From NCBI GenBank assembly GCA_943737045.1, contig CALSFV010000657.1, positions 1 to 64,000 of the forward strand: a stretch of 64,000 nt of DNA, read 5' to 3'. This stretch comes from Parapristionchus giblindavisi. Its lineage: Eukaryota > Nematoda > Chromadorea > Rhabditida > Diplogasteridae. Position 1 is the first letter of the stretch. Every line of letters starts with the position of its first letter. The position numbers and the translations under genes were made by a program. The notes beneath the pieces are model-generated. The model saw only the letters and a list, made by a program, of their open reading frames with translations. It did no database searches and was not told the DNA's origin. Shown here in pieces: positions 36,086 to 56,212 of this stretch.

Positions 36086-36422
36086 TCTTTAGGGCTCTTA
36101 CAGGAGCGCTTTGTTTCCTACGCTTCCTGCCCCCTACACAGTGCGTTTTTTTTCTTTAAAAAATAAGGAATTTTTTCACAAACTTTGATTAATTATATAA
36201 AATCTGAAAGTGCATGGTCGCAGCTAATTTTTTGGTTCCGTCCATATATTGCCTATACCTATCGAGGAAAAATAGTCTTGTTCAAAAGTCTAAAAGATAT
36301 TTCTGTACTTCCCTTGTCAGTGTTGTATGCTCAGCATCAATATTCATTCTGACCACATTGTTGTTGAAACAATTGCAAGAAAAATGATGAGAAAATAAAA
36401 TAAAATAAAAGACATATTCGGC

Positions 36423-36690
36423 GCAAATGTCCCTCGCGCATTTGGTTCTTGCGCAAATGTTCCTCGGCGCATTTGGCTATTGCGCTAATGTCCATCGCGC
36501 ATTTGGTTATTGCGCAAATGTCCCTCCGCGCAATTGGTTCTGGCGCAAATGTACCTCTGCGCAAATGTCCCTCCGCGCATTTGGTTCCGGCGCATTTGGT
36601 TCCTGCGCAAATGTCCCTTTGCGCATTTGGTACAGGCGCAAATGTTACTCTGCGCAAATGAGATCTTGCGCAAATGACCATTGCCTTCGT
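36423..36690 (-). repeat. Degenerate 31-bp-type array, right end of K
   Basis: GCGCAAATGTCCCTC plus GCGCATTTGGTT words, inverse of the left array but with irregular spacing and inserted bases. Confidence 0.85.
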
Positions 36691-36975: not shown

Positions 36976-37345
36976 CGAAATATACCTCTCCCAATCACAT
37001 TATGACAATGGTTCTCTGAATACGGGAGGGACATATCACAAATGCCGGAACCCCAGATTTGAATGTTTTAAACAACACGCATGTAATTATACATCTAATT
37101 TATTCACAGCACGCATAAACTACAATCATGGTCTAAATAGGAATATAGTGGAGGGGCGAAACATAAAAGATAAGATACTAAAAATTAGGGGTCAGAGCAA
37201 GAGGTGTAAACCACCTCTTGCTTGGCCAGAATCTCTCTCTGACGAGAGAGGGGAGAGAGGGATAACTGCTAGAGATGAGGGGGAGGTTCTATCTCTGTCT
37301 CTATCTACTTGGAAACAAACTAGACTAAGTATACTGATACATTAC
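36976..37345 (-). repeat. Gypsy 3' LTR
   Basis: 370 bp, same sequence as 52796-53165. On minus it begins GTAATGTATCAGTATAC and ends GAGAGGTATATTTCG. No TG...CA end; boundaries are set by the AATAT duplication and could shift by a base. Confidence 0.9.
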
Positions 37346-37905
37346 ATCTACAATCTCTAATAAGTTGAGCTCCGTCGAAACAAAGAATACTAAAAAATGG
37401 ATACTAAATGGGGAAGGGAATATTGAATGAAATAAGCAAGAAAATCAAAGCAAGAAAAGCAAAGTAAGAATAAAAGCAAGAAAAAGCAAGAAACAAATTA
37501 AATGAGGTATAGATATTTGAGATCTTAGCATTGGTGAAAAAAATACGAAAACATATTAAAGTAATGAGGACGGGAGTGAACCCTTCCAAGAGAGAGATCA
37601 CTTTATCACACTTGCCCGAGATTCCCGAGATCCTTCACCCCGTCTCGTTTTGATACTTCCCTCGGAAACCATCGAAATCCAGCCATCTCTCTCGATGAAG
37701 GTGAGAGTGATTGGCTGATTTCATTTCTGGCTCGCAAGGAGGATATCTCAGTGACGTGAGTGTGGCCCGGTCTCTCTCGATTGGCTATGCGCTACTACAT
37801 GATCTCTCACTCGCAAAGGTTCTTCTCCATTCTCACGAAAAACAAACAATTTTTGTTTTCACCAATACTAGGAATTACATGAAATGATGAATAATTATTG
37901 TACCA
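37346..37905 (-). other. Gypsy 3' untranslated region
   Basis: Between the pol stop and the 3' LTR. Holds AAAGCAAGAAAAGCAAG-type purine stretches (37430-37500 on plus). No clear polypurine tract right at the LTR edge. No gene. Confidence 0.6.
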
Positions 37906-40900
37906 CTACTGCTTCTTCTTCTTGAGCCTCTCTGATCGTCGAAGAGGTGGGCTAGGTGTTGCTGCTGGTGTAGTCGATGTAGATGTCGTGGACGGGATGA
38001 GGGTGGATGGGAGATCTGACGGTCCTCGTTTGTAGAGTCTCAGCTGGTCTTTGTGGTAGGTTCTTCGTGTTGTTGGGTTTATTTCGATCTCCACTTGGCT
38101 TCCGATGACCTTTGTGACCACGTACGGTCCATCGAGTCGGGCTGACAGCTTATTTCTTACAAGAGGGCGTGACAGCAGCACTTCGTCTCCTTCTTGGATC
38201 TCCTTCTTCTTGATGAGATGACTCTTCTCGTATTGGACCTTCTGTTGGAGTGAAGCCTTCTCCATGTTCTGCTCGATTGTCTCGCAGATTCTTATCAAGG
38301 CGAGCTTGACTCTCTCAGAGTATTCCTCGAGACTGGTTGATGTGACTGCAGCAGGAATGTTGAGGTCTTCAGGAAGTCGGGCTTCTCGACCGTGGATGAC
38401 AGTGAAGGGTGGAACCTTTGTTGTTGAACTCTTCTTGTTGTTAAGAGCAAAGGCCACGATAGGGAGGTATTCGTCCCAGTCGTTGGCTGCTTCTTTAACG
38501 AAAGCTGAGAGGGACTCCTCGAGAGTACGGTTGAGCCGTTCCACGAGGCCATTAGCGTTCTTATGATACGGCGCGCTGATCTCGTGGTGGCATCCCAATT
38601 TCTTCAACAGTGATTCGAATTCCTTCGACATGAAGTTCGTGCCTTGGTCGGTGAATATCGTCTCAGGGGTACCATGACGGCTGAATACTTCGTTCACGAA
38701 TGCCTTGCAGATGGTCTCGGCTCGTTGATTAGGAAGGGGAATAGCAATGCAGTACTTACTGAAGGCATCCTGTGCGGCCAGAATATACTGATTGCCTTGC
38801 TCAGTCATGGGAAGTTTTCCGATGAGATCCAGATGAAGTCTTTCGAATGGTCGATGAACAGTGGGAAGGGATGATAGTGGCTCCTTCGATAGATCTCCTG
38901 GTAGAGTCTTCCTCTGCCTACATTGTAGACACTGGGCAACGAATGAGGACACATCTTCTTTCATTCCTTTCCACACATATCTCTTCCTTAGTTCGGCCAG
39001 TGTTCGAGCTGTGCCTCCATGGGCACCGATGTATGGGGTATTGTGGAAGTGTTCGATGATGTCGAGTGTGACCTTCTCATTACGAGGTAGAACGATTCGG
39101 AGTGGGGCTCCAACTGAGGATTGCTCGTATACGATATCATCCTTGATGGAATATCGGGTATGATTCGTAGACGGCGGGCTGTTCTTCATCTTCTCGAGCG
39201 TCTTGACTATCCAGTCAGTCTTCTGTTGAGCTTCTCGTACTGCTCCCATATCGATAGTAGCAATATCGAATGTTACAGTCTTCTCGTTGGTCTTCTTCTC
39301 CTTCTTGGGTGGAGTTACTGGAGCATCTTTATACTCATCATCAATATATCGGGATAACGCGTCTCCGATAGCGTTCGCTTTGCCGGGACGGTAGATGATG
39401 GATAGATCGTATTCCATTATGCTCATCTGATACTTTGCCAGACGACCGACTAGGTCCTTTCGGGTAAGGAGTGATGTGAGAGGGCGGTGATCCACTATAG
39501 CAGTAATCGGGGCTCCCAAGATGTATGTCCTGAATTGCTTTAAAGCAAACACTAATGCAAGGGCCTCTTGTTCGATTATAGCATATCTTCTCTCTGCTGG
39601 TATCAGCTTCCTTGATACATATGATATCGGGCGGGGAGGATCGTCATCTTTGGGTGATTGTAGGAGTACTGCTCCGATGGCGATTGTTGAAGCATCTGAT
39701 TCGATTATGAACGGTCTTCCGGGAGTTGGACCGATCAATACGGGCGGGGAACTGATTGCTTTCTTCAGTTTCTCGAAGGCTTGTTGAGTCTGTTCGTTCC
39801 ATTCGAATTTGCAGTCTTTCTTTGTGAGTTCGTGAAGGGGAGAAGCGATCAGTGCAAAGTTCCTGATGAATCTCCTGAGATACGTAGACATCCCAATGAA
39901 TGAACGAAGTCCTCCAACTGTAGACGGAACAGGGAAGTTTACGATTGCTTCGATCTTGGTGGGGTCTGCTCGTATCCCGCTTCTTCCGACGATTACTCCA
40001 AGGAAACTGATCTCTGCCATCCCGAATTCACACTTCTTTAGTTTGGCTTTCAGTCCAAACTTGATCAGAGTCTCCAGTAGTTCCTTGATATCCTCTAGGT
40101 GACCTTCTTCAGTATCCGACACGACCAGCAAGTCGTCCAAGTAGGCATAGATCTTGGCCTTCGTATGGTGTTCGATGACTCTTATCGCTCGTTGGAAGGT
40201 TGATGGTGCTCCACACAATCCCATCGGCATACGCCGGAATTGGAAGATTCCGATTGGTGTGGCGAAAGCAGTCAGTGGTCTGCTCTTCTCTTCCAGTGGG
40301 ATTTGAAAGAATCCAGATATGAGATCCAGTTTGGAGAAGTAGGAAGATCCATGTGCGAGATCTATGAGATCGTAGATTCGAGGGAGGAGATAGGTCTCTT
40401 TCAGTGTTGCCTGGTTTAGAGCTCGGAAGTCTATGGTGAATCTCCAACCGTCTCGTTTTGCGACCAAGCATACTGGGGAGACCAGATTTGATGTTGATTC
40501 TTCTATGATGTGTTGTTTCTTGAGTTCTTCGACTTGACGGATGATTTCGTCTCTTTTCCATAAGGGAATGACGGCACTGTATGGTTTGGGCCTTGGCTTG
40601 GAAGGGTCAAGTTCGATGATGTGGTTGACGTCTCCTTTGAAACATCCGATGGATCCGTCACCGTTGAAGAACGCTTCTTCATGAGACTTGATGATTCCTT
40701 TGATCTTGTTCTGACCTTCTTCTGAGAGGCTGCACTTCTTCAGATTGAGCTCTTTGAAGAAGTCATAGTCCGGATTGGGCATCAATGGGATGTTCTCTTC
40801 CCAATCGGCTTCTTGAGGTACATGCTCCTGTGGAGGTGTTTGAAGGTCGAACGGGCGTAGATCCTTTCTCAGAACTGCAGTTGAGGCGACGATGGCGTCT

Positions 40901-41949
40901 CTCTCGAGTCGGAGAGGGTAGTCAGACGTATTCTGTATGAGGACCTTAGTTGTCTGAGACTTGAGAGGGTGGAAGATGAAGTCTTCAAATGTGATGGTTG
41001 ATGAATCGATTGGTGTTACATGGTAGATGGGGATCTCTGTCATCATATCAATGGGTGGAGGTTGGATGGAGATGTAGACTTCTTCTTTACCATTAGGTGA
41101 AAATCGTGCTTCTCTTGAGACTGATGCGATTGTTGATATTCTTGAGAAGTATGGTCGACTGTCCTTGGTGAGAAGGGGGATGGTGGAACTTCCTAATGTG
41201 AGTGTGCCATTCATTGGAGATAGGACTGCTTTGATTCCTCTTTTCTCAAGGATCGTGATGAAGTCGAATCCGAGAAGAGCGTTGGCAGGGCAGGCATTGT
41301 CCTGTGAGACGAGGAAGGGGTATTTCACTTCATGGTCACCGATGCGAACAATCATGTCCGCTTCTCCTAAGAAAGAGAATGCGGATTTGTTGGCGGCGAT
41401 ACCGGTGATAGATATTGGTCTGTCGATCTTTCTTCCGATTTTGTGAAGAGTCGATTCGGTGAGGTAAGTACAGGCTGCTCCTGTATCCCACAAAGCAGTC
41501 ACTACTCGATCATTCAGTGTTACTGGGACATGAGGTAGATTTTGTCCCACAGCAACAGCGTAGATTGGGATGAATGATGACGTCGATGTTGTTGGACATT
41601 CATTACGATTATATCGATGTGGTGGCATATAGTACGGTTCCATCTCCATTTCTTCTTTCTCATCCACAACTGTAGGTGCACTGGGATCTGTCTCTTCCGT
41701 CTGTACGGGGTGGATTCCAACTGCTGTGGCGGCAGCTCTCAGGAAGTAGATCTTCATTCCTACTACTGCTACAGCGCCAATGAGAAGAAGTATTGCCACA
41801 GGTATTCCGAACGAGAGGATGTAGGTGAGATATCCTCTGGCCATATCCTTTGCAGTATCCTTCAGGAATTCAGTGGTTTCGTTGAATCCGATGTCTCCGA
41901 ATGAGAAGTCCATGGATTTCTCGATCTCTCCTCGCTCGAGGATCCGCAT
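37906..41949 (-). CDS. pol: Gypsy Pol (with envelope-like membrane segment at its N-terminus)
   Basis: A 1347-aa intact frame. Residues 43-64 form a hydrophobic membrane segment followed by a short basic stretch, which looks like the anchor of the envelope-like protein encoded upstream. Then come: protease with DTG at 155-157; reverse transcriptase with YLDD at 603-606; RNase H with an acidic residue at 752 (ESDAS); integrase with an HHCC zinc site (H967/H969, H977, C1007, C1010) and catalytic D1041, D1101, E1137, spaced D-59-D-35-E. The basic C-tail ends RRSERLKKKK. The protein copies the element RNA and integrates the DNA. The ATG is not necessarily the start: the frame stays open upstream to a single TGA at 41977-41979, beyond which the envelope-like ORF continues in the same frame. 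Confidence 0.95.
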   Translation of the reverse strand: MRILERGEIEKSMDFSFGDIGFNETTEFLKDTAKDMARGYLTYILSFGIPVAILLLIGAVAVVGMKIYFLRAAATAVGIHPVQTEETDPSAPTVVDEKEEMEMEPYYMPPHRYNRNECPTTSTSSFIPIYAVAVGQNLPHVPVTLNDRVVTALWDTGAACTYLTESTLHKIGRKIDRPISITGIAANKSAFSFLGEADMIVRIGDHEVKYPFLVSQDNACPANALLGFDFITILEKRGIKAVLSPMNGTLTLGSSTIPLLTKDSRPYFSRISTIASVSREARFSPNGKEEVYISIQPPPIDMMTEIPIYHVTPIDSSTITFEDFIFHPLKSQTTKVLIQNTSDYPLRLERDAIVASTAVLRKDLRPFDLQTPPQEHVPQEADWEENIPLMPNPDYDFFKELNLKKCSLSEEGQNKIKGIIKSHEEAFFNGDGSIGCFKGDVNHIIELDPSKPRPKPYSAVIPLWKRDEIIRQVEELKKQHIIEESTSNLVSPVCLVAKRDGWRFTIDFRALNQATLKETYLLPRIYDLIDLAHGSSYFSKLDLISGFFQIPLEEKSRPLTAFATPIGIFQFRRMPMGLCGAPSTFQRAIRVIEHHTKAKIYAYLDDLLVVSDTEEGHLEDIKELLETLIKFGLKAKLKKCEFGMAEISFLGVIVGRSGIRADPTKIEAIVNFPVPSTVGGLRSFIGMSTYLRRFIRNFALIASPLHELTKKDCKFEWNEQTQQAFEKLKKAISSPPVLIGPTPGRPFIIESDASTIAIGAVLLQSPKDDDPPRPISYVSRKLIPAERRYAIIEQEALALVFALKQFRTYILGAPITAIVDHRPLTSLLTRKDLVGRLAKYQMSIMEYDLSIIYRPGKANAIGDALSRYIDDEYKDAPVTPPKKEKKTNEKTVTFDIATIDMGAVREAQQKTDWIVKTLEKMKNSPPSTNHTRYSIKDDIVYEQSSVGAPLRIVLPRNEKVTLDIIEHFHNTPYIGAHGGTARTLAELRKRYVWKGMKEDVSSFVAQCLQCRQRKTLPGDLSKEPLSSLPTVHRPFERLHLDLIGKLPMTEQGNQYILAAQDAFSKYCIAIPLPNQRAETICKAFVNEVFSRHGTPETIFTDQGTNFMSKEFESLLKKLGCHHEISAPYHKNANGLVERLNRTLEESLSAFVKEAANDWDEYLPIVAFALNNKKSSTTKVPPFTVIHGREARLPEDLNIPAAVTSTSLEEYSERVKLALIRICETIEQNMEKASLQQKVQYEKSHLIKKKEIQEGDEVLLSRPLVRNKLSARLDGPYVVTKVIGSQVEIEINPTTRRTYHKDQLRLYKRGPSDLPSTLIPSTTSTSTTPAATPSPPLRRSERLKKKKQ

Positions 41950-41976
41950 TGTAGCGAGCTGCTGTTGTCGGATTGC

Positions 41977-43174
41977 TCAGAGATGTTGACCGTATGAGAT
42001 AGCCAATTGAAGAGGGAATGATGATGTGCGAATTCCTTCGAAGAGGGAAGGGGAGGTGTAGTCCAGATAGGGTAGATCGGGTGTCTTGAGAGTGTTGGTG
42101 GCAAATTTGAACTCGGTGATCTTTAGACCATCTACTAGACTCGAATACGAACCGTCTTTCTCTTTCCATACGAGTGGGTGTGCGTCCTTACACGGTATGG
42201 TACGACTGTGGTCTGTGAGATCAGGGTATCCAGCTTGGGAGAATAGCGTCCGATTATCATGGGTGAGAACGGGGACTTTCTCGAAGCAGGTATTGTTGAT
42301 CTTCTTGTCGAGGTATACCTTCTTTGGAAGGATAGCAGTACACTTCGAGATGGAGACAACGTCGGGTCCAACATACCGGGCGAGTATGTCGTCTCGGTTG
42401 AGGGATGAGCGTATACCCATTGTGGGATCAATCCGCATGATTGCCCAGAATAGTCGATTGAGCTTGAGGTTGATCACGCAGATCTTCTGGAAGACATCGA
42501 CGAATTCCTTCTTCACGACTTCTTGGTTCCTTTTCGTTAGGAAGGAGAGCTTGGCGTTGTAGTTGATCTCGGATTGGTTGAGACGGATGTTCTCTTCTCT
42601 ATCATATGCATGCTGCATATACTTGGTATGTTGATCAGATCCAACTGATCCTCTGTGCATTGGGACTTCTGTAGATGGGATCATTGTTGAAGATGGGATT
42701 CCTTCGAATTTCGCCTGGCGGCTCGTCCGATTCCGGGATCTCTTGGATAGGCTTTGAATCCATTGCTTGATGTCCGTAACCTCTGGCCAGGATGGAAGGG
42801 TGAAGATGATGCCAGCAGTAGTTACGTGTGGGAATTGGGAGAAGCATTTCTTGATCTCATGTGGAGTCTTCTTATCGGATAGTGTAAAAGCTACTTGGCT
42901 TTCTGGGATAAGAAGAGTGGGATATGCTATGGTTGCAGGATATTCTCCGGATTTGATGTAGTTACACTGGTCTTGATTGTTGACAGCATCCCATATTACG
43001 ACTGATGTTTCGTCTGAGCAGGATAGGTCTGATAGTTTGCATGACTTGGTGTTCAAGAGCATTGGTGTGATAATGGTATCGTCATCGATGGTGGAGATTC
43101 TGCTTCTTTCCAGGACCATCTTCTTGGATAGTACACATTCAGAAGACCATATTCCAGCTGAAGGATGCTTAGCG
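41977..43174 (-). CDS. env: Gypsy envelope-like ectodomain, C-terminal part
   Basis: The first ATG gives 380 aa (from 43119), but the frame is open up to the BEL insertion at 43175-43179, so this is the downstream half of a broken gene. Cysteine-rich, with several N-x-S/T sites, as in a secreted or surface glycoprotein, and a basic arginine-rich stretch near residues 130-140. The stop TGA (41977-41979) is followed in the same frame by the membrane segment at the N-terminus of Pol. It carries no Gag, RT or integrase motif. I cannot assign it to a named viral glycoprotein family from sequence alone. The role as an envelope is inferred from the signal peptide (in the upstream half), glycosylation sites, cysteines and membrane anchor. 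Confidence 0.7.
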
Positions 43175-43179
43175 GAATG

Positions 43180-44092
43180 TATAGCAGTCTCGAGGGACTT
43201 ATTGTGTGCTTTGACCTTAGGATGTGATACTAGTTGAGACAGATTTAATATAGTATATGACTACAATTTTATCGTCTGTTACACTAGAACACAAGAATGA
43301 TATAATAATAAATAGTAGGTTTACACTACAAATACAAGTTGATGATGACGTCGTAGACGATAGATTAGAAGGACATCATTGTAGATTATGCTTCTTAGGA
43401 CATCTCGACTGTTACCTCAAACTTGGGTAATTAAACAACAACAATGAAAATAGGGAGCAAACGGGGAATGAACGATTCGCACAATAATGATATGAATAGC
43501 GAAAGAACAAAGGGGGCAAGACTATCAAAGGGATAAAAGGATGATAGGAATGCAGAGCGAAGACGACATCAAGAAGAGGAGTGATGACGGAACAAATAGG
43601 GCATCGATGAAGAGCGAAAAAGGAACAAAAAGGACATCAATGAACGACGGCTAAGAGGACGAACATCGAGAGAGGAAAAGGAATGAAAAGGACATCAACG
43701 AGCGAAAGACTAGAGTTGATAGGATATAGATAAACAGAATATATGGACAATTTGTGAGAGATACACGATATATTCGGACTTGAAGAGCAATAAATAGTGA
43801 GAAAAGGAGAATAGGTAAACGTGTGAATGACATAGAAGAATGAGCGGTACACGATATAAGGATAATATGTGGTAAAAATAGTAAGGAGAAGATACATACG
43901 TGTCAAAAGGTTGAAGGAAAGGAGAGAGGATGATGAGAGAATGCCAAGTCATCATAGCCATTTGCATATTGCTCATTTCTACCATAGTCAGATATTGTAG
44001 GACCGGGTGAGAGAGTGCGCTAGTGCGCTAGGGCGTGCGCTAGAGCGCAATTCTGACTCGTGTTCGTATCAGTAGTGATCATGATCGCTACA
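43180..44092 (-). repeat. BEL 3' LTR
   Basis: 913 bp, identical in appearance to 48886-49798. On minus it starts TGTAGCGATCATGATC and ends GAGACTGCTATA. Contains GCGCTAGTGCGCTAGGGC repeats near its 5' edge. Confidence 0.92.
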
Positions 44093-44430
44093 CTCCCGCC
44101 CCAGAAAAGGAGTAGAGCATAGAGGATAGATGAACATACACAGAGGCATTGATGTTAGATAAGGCTTGTATTGAGGATACATAAATAGGTAAAGAGAAAA
44201 GATGTTTATGTCAACTATGTAAGGATAAAGATCAAAGATCATAGATCATAGATGACTATATGTAGGAAACGATGAATAGGAGGAATGAAGTGTCGATATA
44301 AGATATAAGAAACGTTCATAAGCTTATAAAGATCATATTATCGTCTTGAGGTAAATCATAGTGAATACTCATAGAAATACTATTAAGTTTAAAAAGGCAA
44401 ATGATTGAACTTCATGGAGTAACCATTACT
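44093..44430 (-). other. BEL 3' untranslated region
   Basis: Between the ORF stop and the 3' LTR; includes an AAAGATCATAGATCATAG motif at 44229-44250. The CTCCCGCCCCAGAAAAGGAG next to the LTR on plus is pyrimidine/purine biased but reads CTTTTCTGGGGCGGGAG on minus, so it could serve as a polypurine-like tract. Confidence 0.5.
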
Positions 44431-47400
44431 TTATGAATAATCTTGAATAGTATACGGTAGAACTTTGAAATCGAATAAGACACTTATAGTATGGTATGGT
44501 AAAGGATAATCCTTCATAGGAGTAGACTTCCTCCCCACTACAAGAATAGTGTGATAACTTGATACTATACTATGTAAATGGAAGTTATCTAGCTGTATTG
44601 AATAGTATGGATAGAGGATGAGATAGTAATACTGATGAGAATGTAGTAGAATAGTACTAGAATAGAGTAAGAGTTGATGGCTATATAATAAGGAGAGGTT
44701 TGGGATAATGACAGAAGAGATTATAAGATAGAGGACGACACTCATGATGACTACAGAACGAGTAGTCCAATCATATAGTTTTAAGGTGGCTTTAGAAGAC
44801 TTCACCTTAGACCTTGTCATCATAACACTCGTCTTCTGTTTCACTACTTCTACCATATCATGATTAGGAGTTGTAGTATTATCATAATAAGGTGGATTAC
44901 TTGTACTAACTGATATTTGTAATGGAATAAGTAAGTGATATGATTTATTTGAAGCTTCTTGAATAGATGGAGACTTATTGATTGGAGGAGAAATATTAGG
45001 CGATGATTCTTTCTTATCTTGTAGTGCTGGTCTCGAATTGAATAATGTGGATGACTTGCATATAGATAGTCTAGCGTTACGATGAATAGATAGATCGAGC
45101 CCATTTATATCATCCATTAACTTTAACCAATCAATATGAGAACGATCGAATAGTTTCAAGTACAAATCAATACTAGGCTCCCAAACGAATCTTAAGGATA
45201 AACATGTATTGAGAACAAGAGGAGAGATCATTCGTAATGGATCATGTGATGAGGATATAATTGAAGAGACTAATCTCTTGATATCATGAGATGGTTGAGA
45301 TAACTTCGGAAACTTAATCGATAAAGTATCAATAGTTGAATTCCATGGTAGATCAAGAAGTTTGTGTCCTCCTTTAGAGGTTCTATCTTCTTTTGATGTG
45401 TTTTCATTGAATTCTTTACTACTTGATTCATAGTGTCTTAGCTTAATACTTGTAACTCTAAAGATAAGTTTACTCTTTGTATATAATGAAGTATCGATAT
45501 CATTAACTGATAACAACAGTTTATCGACAGAAGTAGAATGATCTATTTGAGATATTGTCGAGTCATTACCATGATCTGCTTTAGCCTTATTCAAATAATG
45601 TTGAATAGTCTTGATGAGAGGATATGGTGATTGATTAATATCGAATAGAGTTACAGTGAATCGATAGTATATGATATTATCGTGAGATGATGATGAAGAT
45701 AGATAATTAATCCATAATGGAGTAGTTATTTTATCTGGAGGAAGAACTGATTGATGAACTAAGTAATGGATAATAAATCGATCATATCGATATCTTGATA
45801 GTTCTTCAATGTGACCTATGGATTGTTGATCTCTTATCAATTGATCATGAAACGATTGATGGTCTTGAATCGTGGATAGTTTAGTCAAATTGTGCTGTAG
45901 ACATTTATATGCCTTTGCATAATTATCATAATTATCATAGAGATTATTGTCTCGTAGACAATACTTGGCTGCATATTCATTATAATTATATTGTATGGTA
46001 TCAGATAAAGGAAAATCAACAATAGCATCTTCATGTTTTCTCACTTGACTCTCTGCCACAGTTTCTAGTTGAGAAGATGGTTTGATAGCTAAGGATCTTT
46101 CATTTGTAGTAATAACTTCATGCTCATTTATCAGGGTAGTTGAATCAATCGATGGTTTATCGATTAAGTGTTCAGTATCGGAAAGAATAGAGACATGACT
46201 GATATGCGAGGTGGTATCAGCATTAGGAGTATCTTTGGATTTGTTCAAATGATATGACTTATCTGAATCGATCGATGGTTTATCGATTAACTGTTCGTTA
46301 TCAGAATGAATAGATATATGATTAGTATGTAAGGTGATATCATCATTAGGATTATCTGTGATGGCTGAACGAGTTTGTCGTCCACCAATTACGTATCCAA
46401 ATGCTGATTCATGTAATCGAAGACCACTAGGTAGTGTATATGAGGATAAAGAATAGAGATTATCAATAGTGTTGTGAACACCTAACAATATTTCAGGTTC
46501 TATTCTTCCTGATCGATTTGGAGTATCAGATAGATAGATATTATTGTTGCTGATGAACACTCTGTCTTGTGAGGATAGCTTAGTAATGAATATCGGGTTG
46601 ACTACAGGGCCATCTATAACTAATGCATCTACTTGATATCCTTTTCTATCTACTGTATTGAGTATAAATGAAGCAATATCATAGGATTTCTTGCTAGTAT
46701 TCACTCCAGTAGCTAGATTCAGTCGAAGTTGCTCAGTACGTATAATGGGTATCTGTAGATAGTCAACTAATGTTCTACTGATTAATGATACTTCGGCTCC
46801 AGTATCCAAAAGTACATGTACCTTCTTATGTTCATATTGAATGGATTTGGAAGGAGTAGTAGTATCATTAGGAGGTAACAATGTGGTTCTTACAGTTAAT
46901 AGTCGAGGACAATCTCTATGTATAGGAGATGGAGATGATACACTTGTAGATAGAGAACCTACTGTAAGAGAGTTATCAGGTAATTGAGGGCATAACGATA
47001 TCGAATGTGTACCATTGCATCCCGTGCATCTCTTGTTACATGTACTCGTTAAATGATCAGAGGATAAACAACAATGGCATAGTTGTTTAGAAGTTAATAT
47101 CATTTTACGATCATTTATTGAAGATACTTTCCGACAGTTAAGGGAATTAGTGTGCTTATTACAGTATACACAAGTATCTTTGTAAGGAAGAGATGGTGGT
47201 GGTTCTTTCTTATTCCTATCATCTTTACTCTTATTATTATCATTACTAGGAGGTATAGTATTAGCATTCGTTTGAGAAAGTAAAGGTGGTATACGAGAAT
47301 CAGAGAAGGATAGATTATGCATACTATGACTTAGATCAGCAACATTATGTGATTCATAAACTCCTGATGCAATATTAACTCTGATGTCTTCTCTTATCTG

Positions 47401-48717
47401 TTTCAAGAGAAATTTTAGAGCGTCATCTGCACTGAATATATTGTTCACTCTATGAATATCTTGTCGATATTTTATACTGAATTTGTTGACAACAGTAAAT
47501 GCAGGTAATGTTGAACAATAATCATAATACTTCACCTGTTCTACTAAAGCTAATAACTCTCGAGCTAACTCTAATTGATGTTGTGCACTCTCAGATTTAG
47601 CCTGTATGTAATGTATTGATTGATGAAGAGCTGCTAATGCTTCTCTTGCATCACCATATTCATTCTTAAGAGCGTCTATCGCGAGAGGTAAACATAGTCC
47701 GTTAGGAGGATACATTTGTATGACTGATCGTGCCTCTCCACTGAGATGTTTTAAGAGATAGAGGTGTTTTTCTGTATCAGTTAAGTCCAGTCTATTCATA
47801 TAGACACTAGTGAATAATGACAGAAAGGTAGCAAATGAAGCTCTATCTCTTCCACTAAATGTTGGTATATTTAGAGGATCTAGTGGTGGTCTCGATGATT
47901 GAATAGTTGTTGACGGATATATCTGTTCTCTAGGTATTGATGTAGACATTCTAGGCATTGGCGTAGGAACGGTAGTATTATCTACTTGTCTAGTTGCTGG
48001 AATAGATATACTAGGAGATGGTGTAGGAAAAATAGTATTATCTACTTGTCTAGTCACAGGATGAGGTTGAACAGTATTGATAGCGGTGTTGATAGATGAC
48101 TTCTTACGACGACGACGATGTCTAGTCGTTCTAGTACTAGATCTACTTGTGTTGATCTCGCTCTCTCTACTCTGAATACTACTACTAGAGATATCACGTG
48201 TAGCTTTAGTTTCACGAGTTCCTCTGACCGTATGACTAGATTCAGAGCGTTCAGACTTAGATTGTTTCTTTCTGCGTCTAGGTTCGCGACTAGTAGTCCT
48301 TGCGCGTTGGAATGAAGTATTGAATAGGATAGAATTACCGGTTCTTTCGAGAGCTGATTTCACAGTGGATATCACAGAATCAATACCCGAACTAACCGAT
48401 ACATTTGTTCTGTAGACTGTGTTTGATGGATCTTGGGAATGTTGAAACGTTCGGAGATGTTCCGACTCGGTTACAGAACCACTTTCTGAAATGAGATGAG
48501 ATAGATCATCTTGATGTCTCTTATACGAGGCGAATTTGAGTTCTAATTTAGATGATATTGATCGATATTGGGTTGACAAACTATTGTAGTCGTCTATTGA
48601 ATAACACTGAGATATATCATCTACCAAGTTTTCTAGTTCTTGCATTTTAGCTATAATAAAAGCTAATTCAGTATCGAGCGTTGCATAAGTAGCACTGTAC
48701 TCGCTTTGAAAGGACAT
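44431..48717 (-). CDS. BEL/Pao-type Gag-protease protein with a remnant RT
   Basis: 1428 aa, uninterrupted. Residues 1-280: Ser/Arg-rich head. 280-450: BEL-type Gag region (PTFSGRDRASFATFLSLF, DUF1759-like). 516-576: Cys/His zinc-binding cluster (CVYCNKH, CHCC, CTGCNGTH). 632-800: retropepsin with DTG at 638-640 and the BEL-type LLGV...SGLRLHESAFGYVIGG stretch. 905-1290: pieces of a BEL reverse transcriptase (N-terminal fingers, and the thumb-like PWNSTIDTLSIKFPKL with VSSIISSSHDPLRMISP), but no palm and no YxDD box; RNase H and integrase are absent. A hydrophobic segment lies near 1330-1360. It can still make Gag and protease; copying must depend on another element. ATG at 48717 follows the leader directly. 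Confidence 0.85.
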   Translation of the reverse strand: MSFQSEYSATYATLDTELAFIIAKMQELENLVDDISQCYSIDDYNSLSTQYRSISSKLELKFASYKRHQDDLSHLISESGSVTESEHLRTFQHSQDPSNTVYRTNVSVSSGIDSVISTVKSALERTGNSILFNTSFQRARTTSREPRRRKKQSKSERSESSHTVRGTRETKATRDISSSSIQSRESEINTSRSSTRTTRHRRRRKKSSINTAINTVQPHPVTRQVDNTIFPTPSPSISIPATRQVDNTTVPTPMPRMSTSIPREQIYPSTTIQSSRPPLDPLNIPTFSGRDRASFATFLSLFTSVYMNRLDLTDTEKHLYLLKHLSGEARSVIQMYPPNGLCLPLAIDALKNEYGDAREALAALHQSIHYIQAKSESAQHQLELARELLALVEQVKYYDYCSTLPAFTVVNKFSIKYRQDIHRVNNIFSADDALKFLLKQIREDIRVNIASGVYESHNVADLSHSMHNLSFSDSRIPPLLSQTNANTIPPSNDNNKSKDDRNKKEPPPSLPYKDTCVYCNKHTNSLNCRKVSSINDRKMILTSKQLCHCCLSSDHLTSTCNKRCTGCNGTHSISLCPQLPDNSLTVGSLSTSVSSPSPIHRDCPRLLTVRTTLLPPNDTTTPSKSIQYEHKKVHVLLDTGAEVSLISRTLVDYLQIPIIRTEQLRLNLATGVNTSKKSYDIASFILNTVDRKGYQVDALVIDGPVVNPIFITKLSSQDRVFISNNNIYLSDTPNRSGRIEPEILLGVHNTIDNLYSLSSYTLPSGLRLHESAFGYVIGGRQTRSAITDNPNDDITLHTNHISIHSDNEQLIDKPSIDSDKSYHLNKSKDTPNADTTSHISHVSILSDTEHLIDKPSIDSTTLINEHEVITTNERSLAIKPSSQLETVAESQVRKHEDAIVDFPLSDTIQYNYNEYAAKYCLRDNNLYDNYDNYAKAYKCLQHNLTKLSTIQDHQSFHDQLIRDQQSIGHIEELSRYRYDRFIIHYLVHQSVLPPDKITTPLWINYLSSSSSHDNIIYYRFTVTLFDINQSPYPLIKTIQHYLNKAKADHGNDSTISQIDHSTSVDKLLLSVNDIDTSLYTKSKLIFRVTSIKLRHYESSSKEFNENTSKEDRTSKGGHKLLDLPWNSTIDTLSIKFPKLSQPSHDIKRLVSSIISSSHDPLRMISPLVLNTCLSLRFVWEPSIDLYLKLFDRSHIDWLKLMDDINGLDLSIHRNARLSICKSSTLFNSRPALQDKKESSPNISPPINKSPSIQEASNKSYHLLIPLQISVSTSNPPYYDNTTTPNHDMVEVVKQKTSVMMTRSKVKSSKATLKLYDWTTRSVVIMSVVLYLIISSVIIPNLSLLYSHQLLLYSSTILLHSHQYYYLILYPYYSIQLDNFHLHSIVSSYHTILVVGRKSTPMKDYPLPYHTISVLFDFKVLPYTIQDYS

Positions 48718-48842
48718 CTTTCTTATAGGTTCCGTACTATTGTACTATACTATTAGGATAGATCGATGTCGTGGTAATAGGAAAGGTTGTTCACAAGAAC
48801 AATAGGAAAGTTTTGCCTGCCAGGGCAAGAGGAGAATAGGTT

Positions 48843-48855
48843 GCCTGCCACGCGG
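48843..48855 (-). promoter_or_regulatory. Putative second tRNA-Gly contact (anticodon-arm complement)
   Basis: Plus strand reads GCCTGCCACGCGG, the anticodon stem-loop of tRNA-Gly(GCC) as known in animals. The element RNA (minus sense) is therefore complementary to that arm, 17 nt downstream of the primer site. An 8-nt partial repeat (GCCTGCCA) is at 48817-48824. Confidence 0.65.
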
Positions 48856-48872
48856 AATTGAATTAATAGTTT

Positions 48873-48885
48873 GGCCGATGCACCA
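48873..48885 (-). promoter_or_regulatory. BEL primer binding site, tRNA-Gly
   Basis: On minus, TGGTGCATCGGCC directly after the 5' LTR, complementary to the 13 3'-terminal bases (GGCCGATGCA-CCA) of tRNA-Gly as found in C. elegans. Primes minus-strand DNA synthesis. Confidence 0.85.
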
Positions 48886-49798
48886 TATAGCAGTCTCGAG
48901 GGACTTATTGTGTGCTTTGACCTTAGGATGTGATACTAGTTGAGACAGATTTAATATAGTATATGACTACAATTTTATCGTCTGTTACACTAGAACACAA
49001 GAATGATATAATAATAAATAGTAGGTTTACACTACAAATACAAGTTGATGATGACGTCGTAGACGATAGATTAGAAGGACATCATTGTAGATTATGCTTC
49101 TTAGGACATCTCGACTGTTACCTCAAACTTGGGTAATTAAACAACAACAATGAAAATAGGGAGCAAACGGGGAATGAACGATTCGCACAATAATGATATG
49201 AATAGCGAAAGAACAAAGGGGGCAAGACTATCAAAGGGATAAAAGGATGATAGGAATGCAGAGCGAAGACGACATCAAGAAGAGGAGTGATGACGGAACA
49301 AATAGGGCATCGATGAAGAGCGAAAAAGGAACAAAAAGGACATCAATGAACGACGGCTAAGAGGACGAACATCGAGAGAGGAAAAGGAATGAAAAGGACA
49401 TCAACGAGCGAAAGACTAGAGTTGATAGGATATAGATAAACAGAATATATGGACAATTTGTGAGAGATACACGATATATTCGGACTTGAAGAGCAATAAA
49501 TAGTGAGAAAAGGAGAATAGGTAAACGTGTGAATGACATAGAAGAATGAGCGGTACACGATATAAGGATAATATGTGGTAAAAATAGTAAGGAGAAGATA
49601 CATACGTGTCAAAAGGTTGAAGGAAAGGAGAGAGGATGATGAGAGAATGCCAAGTCATCATAGCCATTTGCATATTGCTCATTTCTACCATAGTCAGATA
49701 TTGTAGGACCGGGTGAGAGAGTGCGCTAGTGCGCTAGGGCGTGCGCTAGAGCGCAATTCTGACTCGTGTTCGTATCAGTAGTGATCATGATCGCTACA
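48886..49798 (-). repeat. BEL 5' LTR
   Basis: Same 913 bp as 43180-44092; open frames inside are the same in both copies and have no known domain. Confidence 0.92.
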
Positions 49799-51474
49799 GA
49801 ATGAGCTGAAGAACGGAAGACGTCCGGGATGGTAGTTGGTGATATCGTGATGTTGTTCCATTCACGATTTCGAGCGGCGTATCTGCAGTCTCGCACTGTC
49901 GGGGATGCATATCCGACTAGATGCTCATAATCCTTTCGGACCCAGATGCTTCCAGTCGTGCAGAGAGTGTATATCTCCAGTAGGCAACGCCATCCTTCTA
50001 CATCTAGATGGGTATAGTTCTTGATCCATAATGTTATTGTAGCGTTGACGTAGATGGGAGTGGCTGGGAGTCGACATGCTTCTTCGCTGAGGCGAATCGG
50101 GGCTACAAGAATTCCTCCTCCAGAGCTGTGACACCATTGGAATTGCTTGAATGAGGTGGTATCATTATGCTGCTCGATCTTTCGTATGGATAAGTCGTCG
50201 GTAGCATTTGCGGCCTGTGCTGTGGGTAGGAGTGAGATGAGGGCAATCCCTAAGAAGAGGGGAAGAATTCCTTTGACGGATGTTTTCTTCTTGATGGGTT
50301 CCTCATTCGCAACGACCGTGTTGACTCTGCGATCCTCTCGTCTGCCATCCGAACTCCAGTTCCTTCGATCTCTGCTTCCGTTCCGATCCCTTCTCGGACT
50401 GTGATGATCATAGTTACGGTATCGACTTGAGCTACGATGCTCCTGATGCCGATATCTGCTTCCGTTACGGCGATCGTTACGGTTGCGCCTGTCAGAAGAT
50501 GATCTCCTGTTCTGATATGAGACTCCGGACTCTTGGCGATATCCTCCTCTCCCATTACGATCCTGATACTGGTACCCTCTTCCATGTCCATCGCTCTTTC
50601 CATATCCATGTCCAACGTTCCTTCCATACCCATATCCATCGCTCCTTCCATATCCATGTCCATCGTTCCTTCCATAACCATATCCATCGCTCCTTCCATA
50701 TCCATGTCCATCGTTCCTTCCTCCGTTACTACGTCCGTATCCACTGTCCCGCTCCCTTGGTGGCGTTGATGAAATTTTGATTGAGTTGAATCCGGTGAGA
50801 ATGTCCTCGATCGAGGCCTTTCCCTTTGTCCTTGTCTCTTGTCTGATGGCGGAGCTTAGACCACGTGCCGTGGCGACGGCATCGGCAAAGGTAGTAGGGT
50901 GGGCCATCCTGACATATAGTCGTATAGCGTCATTCAGTCCATCGATGAATGATGTTTTCATTGCCGGGTCCTTCGCTGCGTTCGGAACGGGGAATGCCCG
51001 TTCCGCTTGTGTGCGAATGGCCTCCGAGAATTCCTCTATACTTGATGTACCCTGTGTGATGGTCCTGAGCTCTTCGAAGGCTAGTTGCCTTTCTTCATTG
51101 TTGACCAGTGCATCACATAGATGATGAAAAAATTCGTTCAATGGGACGTGGGGACCGTATAGGATGTGATGGTTGATCTGCTCGAGTTTAGAACGGTGTG
51201 TTGATGGAATCTTTGAGAGGACAACTAGCTTGGCTTGTCTGATATCTGGACATGCTAGGTTGAGTTCATCTGTCATTCTTTCTGCGAAGGCACACGGGCT
51301 TTCAGACTTGGGATTGTAGTTCCGAATGTTGCCAATCGTTCCGGCCAGGAGTGTTTGATTGAACATGTCTCCTTGCTGTCCGGCGGGTTGAGCGAATTGA
51401 AGTGGGAGGGGTGGTGGAGGTGGTGGTGGTGGAGGAGGTTGATCCAGTCTCCTTCTTCTGTTCGGCGGTTCCAT
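49799..51474 (-). CDS. gag: Gypsy Gag fused in frame to the envelope-like N-terminus
   Basis: The ATG at 51474 gives a frame that reaches the BEL insertion at codon 558; the last 24 codons of the present ORF (to 49726) are read from the BEL LTR. Residues 1-30: Arg and poly-Pro. 35-230: capsid-like Retrotrans_gag region. 240-385: Gly-Tyr-Gly-Arg and Arg/Ser-rich nucleic-acid-binding stretch, with no zinc knuckle. 402-421: hydrophobic signal-peptide-like segment ending TAQA. 422-558: ectodomain with five N-x-S/T sites (423, 437, 477, 486, 541) and five Cys (448, 467, 497, 505, 530). Gag thus leads directly into a secreted-type domain without a stop. Cleavage between the two by signal peptidase or the element protease is inferred. 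Confidence 0.82.
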
Positions 51475-52777
51475 CGTGTCCTACTTCCAAAGGAGTGGTC
51501 CTACGTCCAGTTGTGTTCGATCCGTCGTCCAATGAAGTGATCAATGTTCGGCCCCCTGAAAATATATAGATTATTTTCCGTGATCAAGATCTCGAAGATA
51601 AGATAAGATAGCAAGAAGGCAAAGAAAGATTAATGAACAGCGTGGGTAGGGAAGATGCAAGAGGACTAGGGGTAGGAGGATGTTAAACTACGTGAAGAAG
51701 ACTAGGGGTAGAAGGTTGGGGTAGGAGGTTAGTAAACTATTACACAGCAAAAATTGAGAGAGAGAAACTGGATGTTTTCGAAGTTTTACAATATTCTTAT
51801 TTAGACCTTTTTTTTTCAACTGACTGACATAGTTACGGTTTTATTAATACACAGAAAAGGGTTAGGACTTGCACCTGAACACGAAAGTGCCCACGAAGGT
51901 GGCCGTTTAGAATAGAGAGGGGAGAACCAAGGAGTGAGTAAGAGCCAAACGACGTGTTCTATGTGATACATAACGAATATACAAACAAGGCTCCCGAAGG
52001 ATTTCACTATCACCTCGTTTCAAAAGCATTATGATACCAACGCGTACAAAATACAAGAGAAGATTCGCTCATAGAACACGCATATAAATTAACTTATTGT
52101 ATGGGTTACGGCAAACACTGGCTCTCTGCAGAAGTAGTCATCAGATCAAAAGTAAAGATAGGTTTTCATAGACTTTACAACGAGAGAATTTAGGTACCAG
52201 TGATTCAAGTGGTCGCGGTAGCATGATTGGTGCATATCACGCTTCAAACATACTCAAGCCAACTAATTGTTAAATACTGTTTCCCTATTATAGAATTGTT
52301 AAGGGGGTAAGAGTGCCGGGAAAACAGATCTCATGCGAGAAACCCTACTGATGGATAATGTGAGACAATAATAATCCCTAATAAATAGTCATAGACGATT
52401 TATTAAACATAAAAGAGATGCAAATGTGAAACCAATGAATAGAACCCAATAATGTGAAATTACGGCCATCAGCAGGTATAACAACGAAATATTGCACAAA
52501 CAAGGCGAGTCAATAGTAACGGCACTCGAGAAAAACCAGCATAAAGAAAGTGAAAAAAATGAAACGACAAAAATTAGCTGGGAAAACTCAACTTGCAGTC
52601 AGTTCGAAAAAAATTGAATTATAGTTTCACTCTTAGTAATGTTACATGCAACCTTTCACTATTGAGGTGATCAGCAACGATAGGATTAGTCAGATGTTGG
52701 AGGTACAAAGAGTGAGAAGAAAATGAAAGCAATAAAACATGAGCGGTTAGTACAATGGGCAAAGAAAACTGGGGGAG
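51475..52777 (-). other. Gypsy 5' leader
   Basis: 1.3 kb between primer site and gag ATG; AT-rich, without long open frame or recognised motif. It should contain packaging signals. Confidence 0.55.
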
Positions 52778-52795
52778 TTAGTACCGGGACCTCCA
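52778..52795 (-). promoter_or_regulatory. Gypsy primer binding site
   Basis: On minus, TGGAGGTCCCGGTACT lies directly after the 5' LTR and begins with TGG, complementary to a tRNA CCA end. I could not identify the tRNA. Confidence 0.6.
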
Positions 52796-53165
52796 CGAAA
52801 TATACCTCTCCCAATCACATTATGACAATGGTTCTCTGAATACGGGAGGGACATATCACAAATGCCGGAACCCCAGATTTGAATGTTTTAAACAACACGC
52901 ATGTAATTATACATCTAATTTATTCACAGCACGCATAAACTACAATCATGGTCTAAATAGGAATATAGTGGAGGGGCGAAACATAAAAGATAAGATACTA
53001 AAAATTAGGGGTCAGAGCAAGAGGTGTAAACCACCTCTTGCTTGGCCAGAATCTCTCTCTGACGAGAGAGGGGAGAGAGGGATAACTGCTAGAGATGAGG
53101 GGGAGGTTCTATCTCTGTCTCTATCTACTTGGAAACAAACTAGACTAAGTATACTGATACATTAC
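52796..53165 (-). repeat. Gypsy 5' LTR
   Basis: 370 bp matching 36976-37345; followed on plus by the AATAT duplicate at 53166-53170. Confidence 0.92.
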
Positions 53166-53489
53166 AATATCCTTCCTTCTGATTTACATATAGAGGCAAC
53201 TACATGTCAACGGCCACCTCGCGGTCATCTGTTGACACGCAGTCTCCGCAATACAGCGCATAGCTTCAAATAATCTTCAGTAAGTACACTTATAAATTGC
53301 CTATTAACAATAGGCAAGTTTCGACGAAATTCAATCAATGGCAAAGATTTAAAAAGTCTATAAATGAAGGGCAAAAATCAATCGATAAAGAATTCACTAT
53401 CGCGGCGATAGTATCGCCCATTTCCCTACTCATCCCATATTGATACTGTAACAGATTATTATAACAAATCAATATTTCATCCACCGTAC

Positions 53490-54878: not shown

Positions 54879-55630
54879 CATAAATGCACGTTATCTATTC
54901 TCTACCTCTCCCTCTTTCTCCATCCATAGTATCCACCCCTCCAGATCCTCTCTATGTATGCCTTCCCAATATTGCAATCCGAGACTCCCGTACGCTAACA
55001 AGTCTTCTTTCATGCCAGCTCTTTTCCCTTATTTCCCTCCTCCAATAGTTACGTTTACGACATCCCGGACTTGCGTCGGTTAATAGTTCCTTCGTAAACA
55101 ATCGGAAAGATAAAATTACAGAGTCATTTTACCAGTCAATGCAAAAGTGAGATACAATTGAAAGAGAGATGTGGAGCGACAACGGATGGACTTTCAAAAA
55201 TAATTATATTAAAAATAATAATGATGACATGAAAGAAATACAACAGTCAACATCGATGAACAATAAAGTCAGAAACGTGCCCCGATCAGACTACCGTACT
55301 CAGAGAGAGAGAGAACAATAAACAGCAGCTACCGTAATCATATCAACATGAATACAGTATCTACCGTATCACGAGATAATACTACAGTAGACAAAGAAGG
55401 GTGGCTACACTACGTCGAGCAATACAAGCAGGGAGAATATAGTCAGATCACACAAGCGATGATGGGCTAATAAAAATAGAGATGAAAGGGGAGAAAATAT
55501 ACGAGACATACGAAACAACTTGTAATGAAAGAAGAAGGAGAGGGAGAAAGAAGGAGACGAAGGGAAATGGAGAGGGAGAAGGGGAGAGATACATGATGCT
55601 GGAGCCAAGATAGCGATAGATAAACTGTAC
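54879..55630. other. Non-genic stretch
   Basis: Unique-looking AT-rich sequence, with ACCGTAATC-type words (55290-55400) leading towards the minisatellite, and purine-rich GAGAAGGAG stretches near 55530-55590. No gene supported. Confidence 0.5.
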
Positions 55631-56212
55631 GATGTTACCGTAACCATCGATCAATAGAAAGTAGCTACCGTAACCATCTATCAATAGAAAGTAGCTACCG
55701 TAACCATCTATCAATAGAAAGTAGCTACCGTAACCATCGATCAATAGTGAGTGGCTACCGTAACCATCGATCAATAGTTAGAGGCTACCGTAACCATCGA
55801 TCAATAGCGAGTGGCTACCGTAACCATCTATCAATAGAAAGTAGCTACCGTAACCATCTATCAATAGAAAGTAGCTACCGTAACCATCGATCAATAGTGA
55901 GTGGCTACCGTAACCATCGATCAATAGTGAGTGGCTACCGTAACCATCTATCAATAGAAAGTAGCTACCGTAACCATCTATCAATAGAAAGTAGCTACCG
56001 TAACCATCGATCAATAGTGAGTGGCTACCGTAACCATCGATCAATAGTGAGTGGCTACCGTAACCATCGATCAATAGTGAGTGGCTACCGTAACCATCTA
56101 TCAATAGAAAGTAGCTACCGTAACCATCTATCAATAGAAAGTAGCTACCGTAACCATCGATCAATAGCGAGTTTCTACCGTAACCATCGATCAATAGCGA
56201 GTGGCTACTGTA
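55631..56212. repeat. 30-bp minisatellite (GCTACCGTAACCATC)
   Basis: About 19 copies of a unit GCTACCGTAACCATCGATCA + ATAGTGAGTG. Two main variants (CATCGATCAATAGTGAGTG and CATCTATCAATAGAAAGTA) alternate in runs, giving a higher-order pattern. The unit length is a multiple of three, so long repeated peptides open on both strands; they are not genes. Confidence 0.96.

Follow-up and report, generated by a model that had tools for sequence, protein, structure and literature searches.

A Ty3/gypsy lineage of the nematode Parapristionchus giblindavisi with a class III fusogen-like Env between Gag and Pol in one long reading frame

A Ty3/gypsy element of Parapristionchus giblindavisi carries an envelope-like protein (Env) between Gag and Pol, in the same reading frame as both. 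It lies on the minus strand of the window, by which we mean the whole 64,000-nucleotide stretch of DNA analysed (GenBank assembly GCA_943737045.1, contig CALSFV010000657.1, positions 1 to 64,000), and its parts follow in the order Gag, signal peptide, Cys-rich ectodomain, membrane anchor, protease (PR), reverse transcriptase (RT), RNase H (RH), and integrase (IN). We consider it likely that the window copy is a decayed env-bearing element of a lineage in which a single long frame encodes Gag, Env, and Pol as one membrane-threaded polyprotein. As judged from the reading frames, the layout is real, being found in six families of one genome, and it is new as far as the literature was searched.

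Three open reading frames (ORFs), gag-env5, env3, and pol (Table 1), stand in register between two long terminal repeats (LTRs) that are identical at 371 of 371 positions and flanked on the outside by a 4-bp target duplicate, ATAT. The Pfam matches are to gypsy-type domains in the PR-RT-RH-IN order of Ty3/gypsy elements (Metaviridae), and LTRs with a short target duplicate were confirmed both in the window and in a relative on contig C663 (C-numbers denote contigs and L-numbers loci of the genome searched, 251 Mb in 703 contigs). Window Gag matches Ty3_capsid (0.0014) and Retrotrans_gag (0.0064) in Pfam, both below cut-off, and the gag piece checked has no CCHC knuckle. The ectodomain is split by a nested BEL element, whose 913-bp LTRs (43180-44092 and 48886-49798) are identical and whose 5-bp target duplicates lie at 43175-43179 and 49799-49803. 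Counting from the gag ATG at 51474, codon 558 falls at 49803, and env3 has a codon start at 43179, the equivalent base of the other duplicate, so that the two ectodomain halves are in the same frame. A preliminary description of this DNA had given these ORF positions, had let the Gag frame run into a signal-peptide-like segment and the ectodomain, had joined the two halves in one frame across the BEL element, and had put a membrane anchor at the start of the pol ORF, upstream of the protease; the ORF list, hydropathy, and our own arithmetic agree with it throughout.

The same description had proposed a single Gag-Env-Pol polyprotein interrupted by one TGA and had named BEL-free copies as the place to look. 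A DNA search with both env halves found one other genomic place, on C1, where the halves are contiguous and env5 is 100% and env3 97% identical to the window. The C1 copy reads as one frame of 1115 aa that starts in the Gag capsid (CA), takes in signal peptide, ectodomain, and anchor, and reaches into the protease, with neither BEL element nor TGA. It is itself decayed: its gag start is partly missing and out of frame, and within the protease the frame is broken. The single frame was thereby upheld, and it is unbroken in the C663 element; the TGA did not hold as part of the layout, because C1 and C663 read in sense at that place and the stop is private to the window copy. A programmed readthrough stop was discarded for its absence from these two copies. 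The single polyprotein would follow from the reading frame.

A search with the env3 protein piece gave 24 matches, representing the window, C1, and 18 further places, 16 of which were readable in loci (C284 and C132 were left out). A protease match follows the Env match within 1 kb on the same strand in 11 of the 16 (C663, C263, C204, C207, C276, C41, C301, C3, C29, C6, and C219), and none was found within the 1.5 kb searched in the other five (C681, two places on C17, C21, and C334). Coordinate arithmetic puts protease and Env core in a common frame in seven of the 11 (C663, C263, C204, C207, C276, C41, and C6), and in five of these seven (C663, C263, C204, C41, and C6), a single uninterrupted frame of 2285-2838 aa surrounds the Env match; the remaining six protease-bearing relatives have stops or frame breaks. 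In C663, the window pieces gag, signal peptide, env5, env3, stem/anchor, PR, RT, RH, and IN are matched in order, in frame -2, within one ORF of 2285 aa. Identity to the window is 52% in gag, 53% in the signal peptide, 52% in env5, 49% in env3, and 46% in the stem/anchor, and 64% in PR, 74% in RT, 89% in RH, and 69% in IN, with 46% at the integrase C-terminus. The LTRs of this element are identical over 415 bp with a 4-bp CACC target duplicate, about 0.7 kb separates the end of pol from the 3' LTR, and a second repeat (208 bp, 98.6%) lies outside the LTRs; LTRs were searched for in the window and C663 only.

In the other four families with an open frame, the ORF holding Env core and RT measures 2838 aa (C41), 2564 aa (C6), 2741 aa (C204), and 2400 aa (C263), and all four have a homologous gag upstream. 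Env, PR, RT, RH, and IN share one frame in C41 and C6, where the Env matches are just 18-31% identical to the window. PR, RT, RH, and IN do so in C204, in an open frame, and in C263, where the ORF ends at a stop inside the integrase. The Gag-Env-Pol order therefore recurs in six families (window/C1, C663, C41, C6, C204, and C263), which is more than chance would give. This bears on the weakest alternative, an assembly artefact or one copy that acquired an unrelated env by chance: in its favour, only the window copy is interrupted by a BEL element and a stop, but six families with the same order, within one supported RT clade, leave this explanation a negligible probability.

Comparison with viral fusion-protein families, also proposed in the preliminary description, did recognise the ectodomain. 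In Pfam, env3 matches PF24664 (Monjiviricetes_fusion) above cut-off (E 4.6e-11) and PF00606 (Glycoprotein_B) below it (E 6.9e-5). The fusion domain is likewise matched above cut-off in C663 (2e-10) and C6 (2.9e-7) and at cut-off in C41 (1.4e-6); gag matches in these three families stay below cut-off (4.6e-4 to 0.039, best per family). An Env alignment of nine rows, some partial, from seven families (window/C1, C663, C681, C204/C207, C263, C41, and C6) has ten invariant columns, five of them Cys. When a profile of these rows was run against PDB, all 37 sequences found at E up to 10 were herpesvirus glycoprotein B (gB), six of them below 1e-3 and the best at 1.4e-4; this count includes the Epstein-Barr names BALF4/gp110, which we take to be gB. 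The window Env piece alone gave no match in PDB, one protein-database search gave none among 7077 candidates, a further one gave two among 7778, both RT-bearing proteins (best 3.1e-6), and NCBIfam returned nothing relevant for four Env pieces. A single-sequence fold model of Env had a mean predicted local distance difference test (pLDDT) score of 34, unusable for the five-domain fold or the fusion loops. From the profile matches, the ectodomain is classed as a class III (gB-like) viral fusion protein. Furin-like RX(K/R)R motifs are present in the ectodomains of C663, C41, C6, and C263, and none was found in window Env or the C204 stretch (L028). With a viral fusion-protein domain, a signal-peptide-like segment, and an anchor, the middle region is not the unrelated insertion that the preliminary description had named as the contrary case.

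Signal peptides, anchors, and membrane crossings were located from hydropathy and by visual inspection. In all six families (window, C663, C41, C6, C204, and C263), a hydrophobic segment that ends in a signal-peptidase-like site lies directly 5' of the ectodomain. The window, C663, and C6 have one anchor before PR, and C41 (L031), C204 (L028), and C263 (L027) have between the Env anchor and PR a conserved extra segment, signal-like and then anchor-like, perhaps encoding a second small membrane protein. The number of strong hydrophobic crossings before PR is even in 6/6 families, two in the first three and four in the others, which would place Gag and Pol on the same side of the membrane. In our view, no other indirect evidence speaks as strongly for one threaded chain as this predicted even-crossing topology.

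In the window family, purifying selection acts on Env. Between the window and C1, env3 has 24 synonymous and 5 non-synonymous changes over 400 codons, with a ratio of non-synonymous to synonymous rates (dN/dS) of 0.058, close to gag CA (15 and 2 changes; dN/dS 0.038); the stem, anchor, and tail have 9.5 and 6.5 (dN/dS 0.20), and env5 is identical between the two copies and hence uninformative.

Among the best 30 of 142 matches in an RT survey, nine loci have an anchor before PR and no CCHC, ten have a CCHC before PR and no anchor, and 11 have broken upstream frames. No CCHC was found upstream of PR in the nine anchor-bearing loci, nor in the gag pieces of the window, C663, C41, and C6. Seven of the nine also have an Env match (window, C663, C6, C41, C263, C204, and C276); of the other two, C237 is a deletion copy that lacks the ectodomain and C289 was outside the Env check. 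In an RT-RH tree of 26 rows (4 of the 30, shorter than 300 aa, were dropped), the nine anchor-bearing and seven broken elements separate without exception from the ten CCHC elements, with branch support of 100/99 and a warning from the tool that long branches meet at the dividing branch. The Env tree also splits the window and C663 from C204, C207, C263, and C41. The two trees conflict on C263, which goes with C204 in the Env tree (91/93) and with C41 in the RT tree (94/97), neither placement being strong. A single origin of the layout in this lineage appears to be the simplest reading of the trees.

Two relatives are deletion copies. On C8 (L016) and C237 (L017), a common internal deletion takes out capsid, signal peptide, and ectodomain and leaves roughly 29 codons from the start of gag fused in frame with the Env stem. 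A small later indel changes the frame close to the anchor; C237 retains PR and RT, and C8 also lacks the RT region. A reverse-transcribed spliced RNA was rejected as their source, as by eye there is no GT-AG at the junction. Two places on C17 (L023 and L024) hold gag-env fragments with open segments of 319 and 360 aa that lack env3 residues 1-273, with no full anchor or protease match, and could be either a deletion derivative or a host-retained gene.

A simple consensus scan for splice signals (TTTTCAG, TTTNCAG, AGGTRAG, and GTAAGT) had no match in window gag-env5, window env3-PR, or C663 gag-PR; the C41 stretch has one GTAAGT, at its upstream edge, and C6 has one TTTNCAG, within gag, neither at the Env borders. 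In the window leader, the acceptor consensus TTTTCAG stands 81 nt before the gag ATG, and it stands 113 nt before it in C8 and C237 and 182 nt in C1. Upstream of window Env, the nearest Met is codon 190, some 206 codons ahead of the signal peptide. Leader acceptor, scan, and Met position fit, without proving, a single message that would start before gag.

The strongest alternative is that Env is an in-frame exon, spliced out to make Gag-Pol and expressed from another spliced RNA, with the single frame belonging to the unspliced form only. The host has genes with the SL1 leader, and trans-splicing presumably takes place in it: an exact leader, of the sequence that we take to be SL1, followed by a splice donor occurs 38 times genome-wide, with none for the reversed control and five copies spaced 4043 bp apart on C328 (as an Rfam family, SL1 gave no match, and the controls were likewise silent). 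Retroviral Env is in addition made from a spliced RNA (PMC10309623). Against this stand the empty splice scan of the window and C663, the off-border position of the single matches in C41 and C6, and the C8/C237 junction, and we judge this explanation unlikely. It is also improbable, to a slightly greater degree, that Env is vestigial as a fusogen, serving intracellular movement only and being kept by its position in the frame, where it may tie Pol to the membrane. Such a role would suit C8 and C237, which have lost the ectodomain but retained the stem, the two C17 copies without most of the Env core, and the weak or absent constraint among C204-family copies. It does not suit the nearly Gag-level constraint of env3 between the window and C1, nor the signal peptide, Cys pattern, and anchor that persist across families whose Env is just about 18-31% identical to that of the window.

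The single threaded polyprotein remains the reading that we prefer, and its expression and processing would run as follows. One mRNA would be translated from the gag ATG, and the internal signal peptide would send the ectodomain into the endoplasmic reticulum, and signal peptidase would free Gag in the cytosol. The anchor would then stop transfer and leave protease, RT, and integrase on the cytosolic side, held by the Env tail until the protease cuts them off. Furin-like cuts may mature Env in several families, and Env would act as a fusogen. Such a scheme would do without a spliced env mRNA and without a gag-pol frameshift. We lean towards a more specific form of this scheme, in which host signal peptidase and not the viral protease frees Gag from the one threaded Gag-Env-Pol chain, Pol travels to the site of budding attached to the Env tail and not as a Gag-Pol fusion, and some families add a second small membrane protein before the protease under the same even-crossing rule.

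Several points weigh against this reading. It would be unusual for Gag, Env, and Pol to be made in equal amounts. The signal peptides and anchors come from hydropathy and visual inspection only, with a scan that also flags an RNase H stretch (1.66). In C41, the crossings come to an even number if a weak segment (1.78) within its Cys-rich ectodomain is left uncounted, and C263 has a weak last crossing (1.75). The splice scan was simple, and TTTTCAG was not found in the 1858 nt of C663 leader read. Finally, Env has a dN/dS of 0.31 between C204 and C207, and 4 non-synonymous and 0 synonymous changes between C204 and C334, so that constraint on Env seems weaker or lost among copies of this family.

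Apart from these subjects, the ORF of the nested BEL element (44431-48744, 1437 aa) has DUF1759, protease, and A17-peptidase matches and no RT or integrase match in Pfam at E up to 1, so that the element looks non-autonomous. Both of its LTRs contain the nematode SL1 leader with the first base differing (43416-43437 and 49122-49143), with a donor-like GT sequence after it. The final 20 nt of the leader are exact in the seven LTR loci compared (L001, L003-L008), each with GT next (GTAAC in two, GTGCG in five), and the BEL element may thus be supplied with its own built-in leader exon. Two short tandem arrays lie near the gypsy element, at 36405-36660 (unit about 31 nt) and 55551-56000 (unit about 30 nt).

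Table 1. Parts of the Ty3/gypsy element and the nested BEL element in the window.
Feature	Position	Strand	Remark
5' LTR of gypsy element	52796..53166	-	371 bp, identical to 3' LTR
Primer-binding-site-like sequence	52771..52795	-	directly 3' of 5' LTR; candidate, by sequence only
Leader	51475..52795	-	1321 nt
gag-env5 ORF	49726-51480	-	ORF list
Gag, capsid-like	50290..51474	-	basic tail
Internal signal-peptide-like segment	50212..50289	-	hydropathy; signal-peptidase-like AQA/ANA end picked by eye
Env ectodomain, N-terminal part	49804..50211	-	5 sequons, 5 Cys
Nested BEL element	43180..49798	-	splits Env ectodomain; no part of gypsy layout
env3 ORF	41977-43260	-	ORF list
Env ectodomain, C-terminal part	41980..43179	-	same frame; 4 sequons, 9 Cys
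Class III fusion-protein core	42154..42561	-	Pfam
TGA stop	41977..41979	-	private to window copy
pol ORF	37906-41976	-	ORF list
Env membrane anchor	41755..41811	-	near pol ORF start; hydropathy
Aspartic protease	41197..41571	-	Pfam
Reverse transcriptase	39988..40458	-	Pfam
RNase H	39409..39801	-	Pfam
Integrase, zinc-binding and core	38563..39078	-	Pfam
3' LTR of gypsy element	36976..37346	-	

To our knowledge, described retroviruses and errantiviruses have env after pol and make it separately. Errantiviruses such as Drosophila gypsy share with the window lineage the Ty3/gypsy PR-RT-RH-IN order and the possession of an env. Their env is a third ORF after pol, whereas that of the window lineage lies between gag and pol. 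Ty3/gypsy elements that bear an env have reportedly been described from across the animals in a preprint. A lineage that stably keeps a class III fusogen within the Gag-Pol frame would represent a different route to becoming a retrovirus and another solution to the packaging of Pol. It opens two questions to test: by what means Gag and Pol are kept in the cytosol on either side of a lumenal domain, and whether Pol can be packaged through Env.

The preliminary description knew of no element with this layout, and this stood for the position of Env: in the open-licence PMC literature, as far as it was searched, no description was found of a Ty3/gypsy element with Env between Gag and Pol and an anchor before the protease. 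Env within one polyprotein is as such known from Atlas virus, with Env at the end. Atlas virus and the hookworm Belpaoviridae are likewise nematode LTR elements with identical LTRs and one stop-free polyprotein that includes a viral fusogen, and nine hookworm BEL elements have complete Gag-Pol-Env polyproteins (PMC9094657). They differ in being BEL/Pao, in the order Gag-Pol-Env with a C-terminal Env, and in their class II, phlebovirus-like fusogen (PMC9094657); the window lineage has neither a BEL/Pao pol nor a C-terminal Env. Tas of Ascaris is a nematode element with an env weakly similar to herpesvirus gB (PMC9094657), but it is BEL/Pao and has its env downstream of the polyprotein (PMC7642597); the env donors of Tas and Cer-7 are assigned the other way round in PMC7642597 and PMC9094657. 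Atlas and Tas thus already provided nematode elements with, respectively, Env in one polyprotein and a gB-like env. Cer1 of C. elegans is, like the window element, a nematode Ty3/gypsy element with no stop between gag and pol, but its Gag has three CCHC fingers and its extra ORF, CERV, is not Env-like, lies after pol, and is made from spliced RNA (PMC10309623); the window lineage has no CCHC Gag before the protease. The Anakin elements of mosquitoes are LTR elements that captured a chuvirus-type glycoprotein, and differ in belonging to the Pao family and to insects (PMC7642597). With the window lineage, gB-like fusogens would now be present in a second superfamily of nematode LTR elements.

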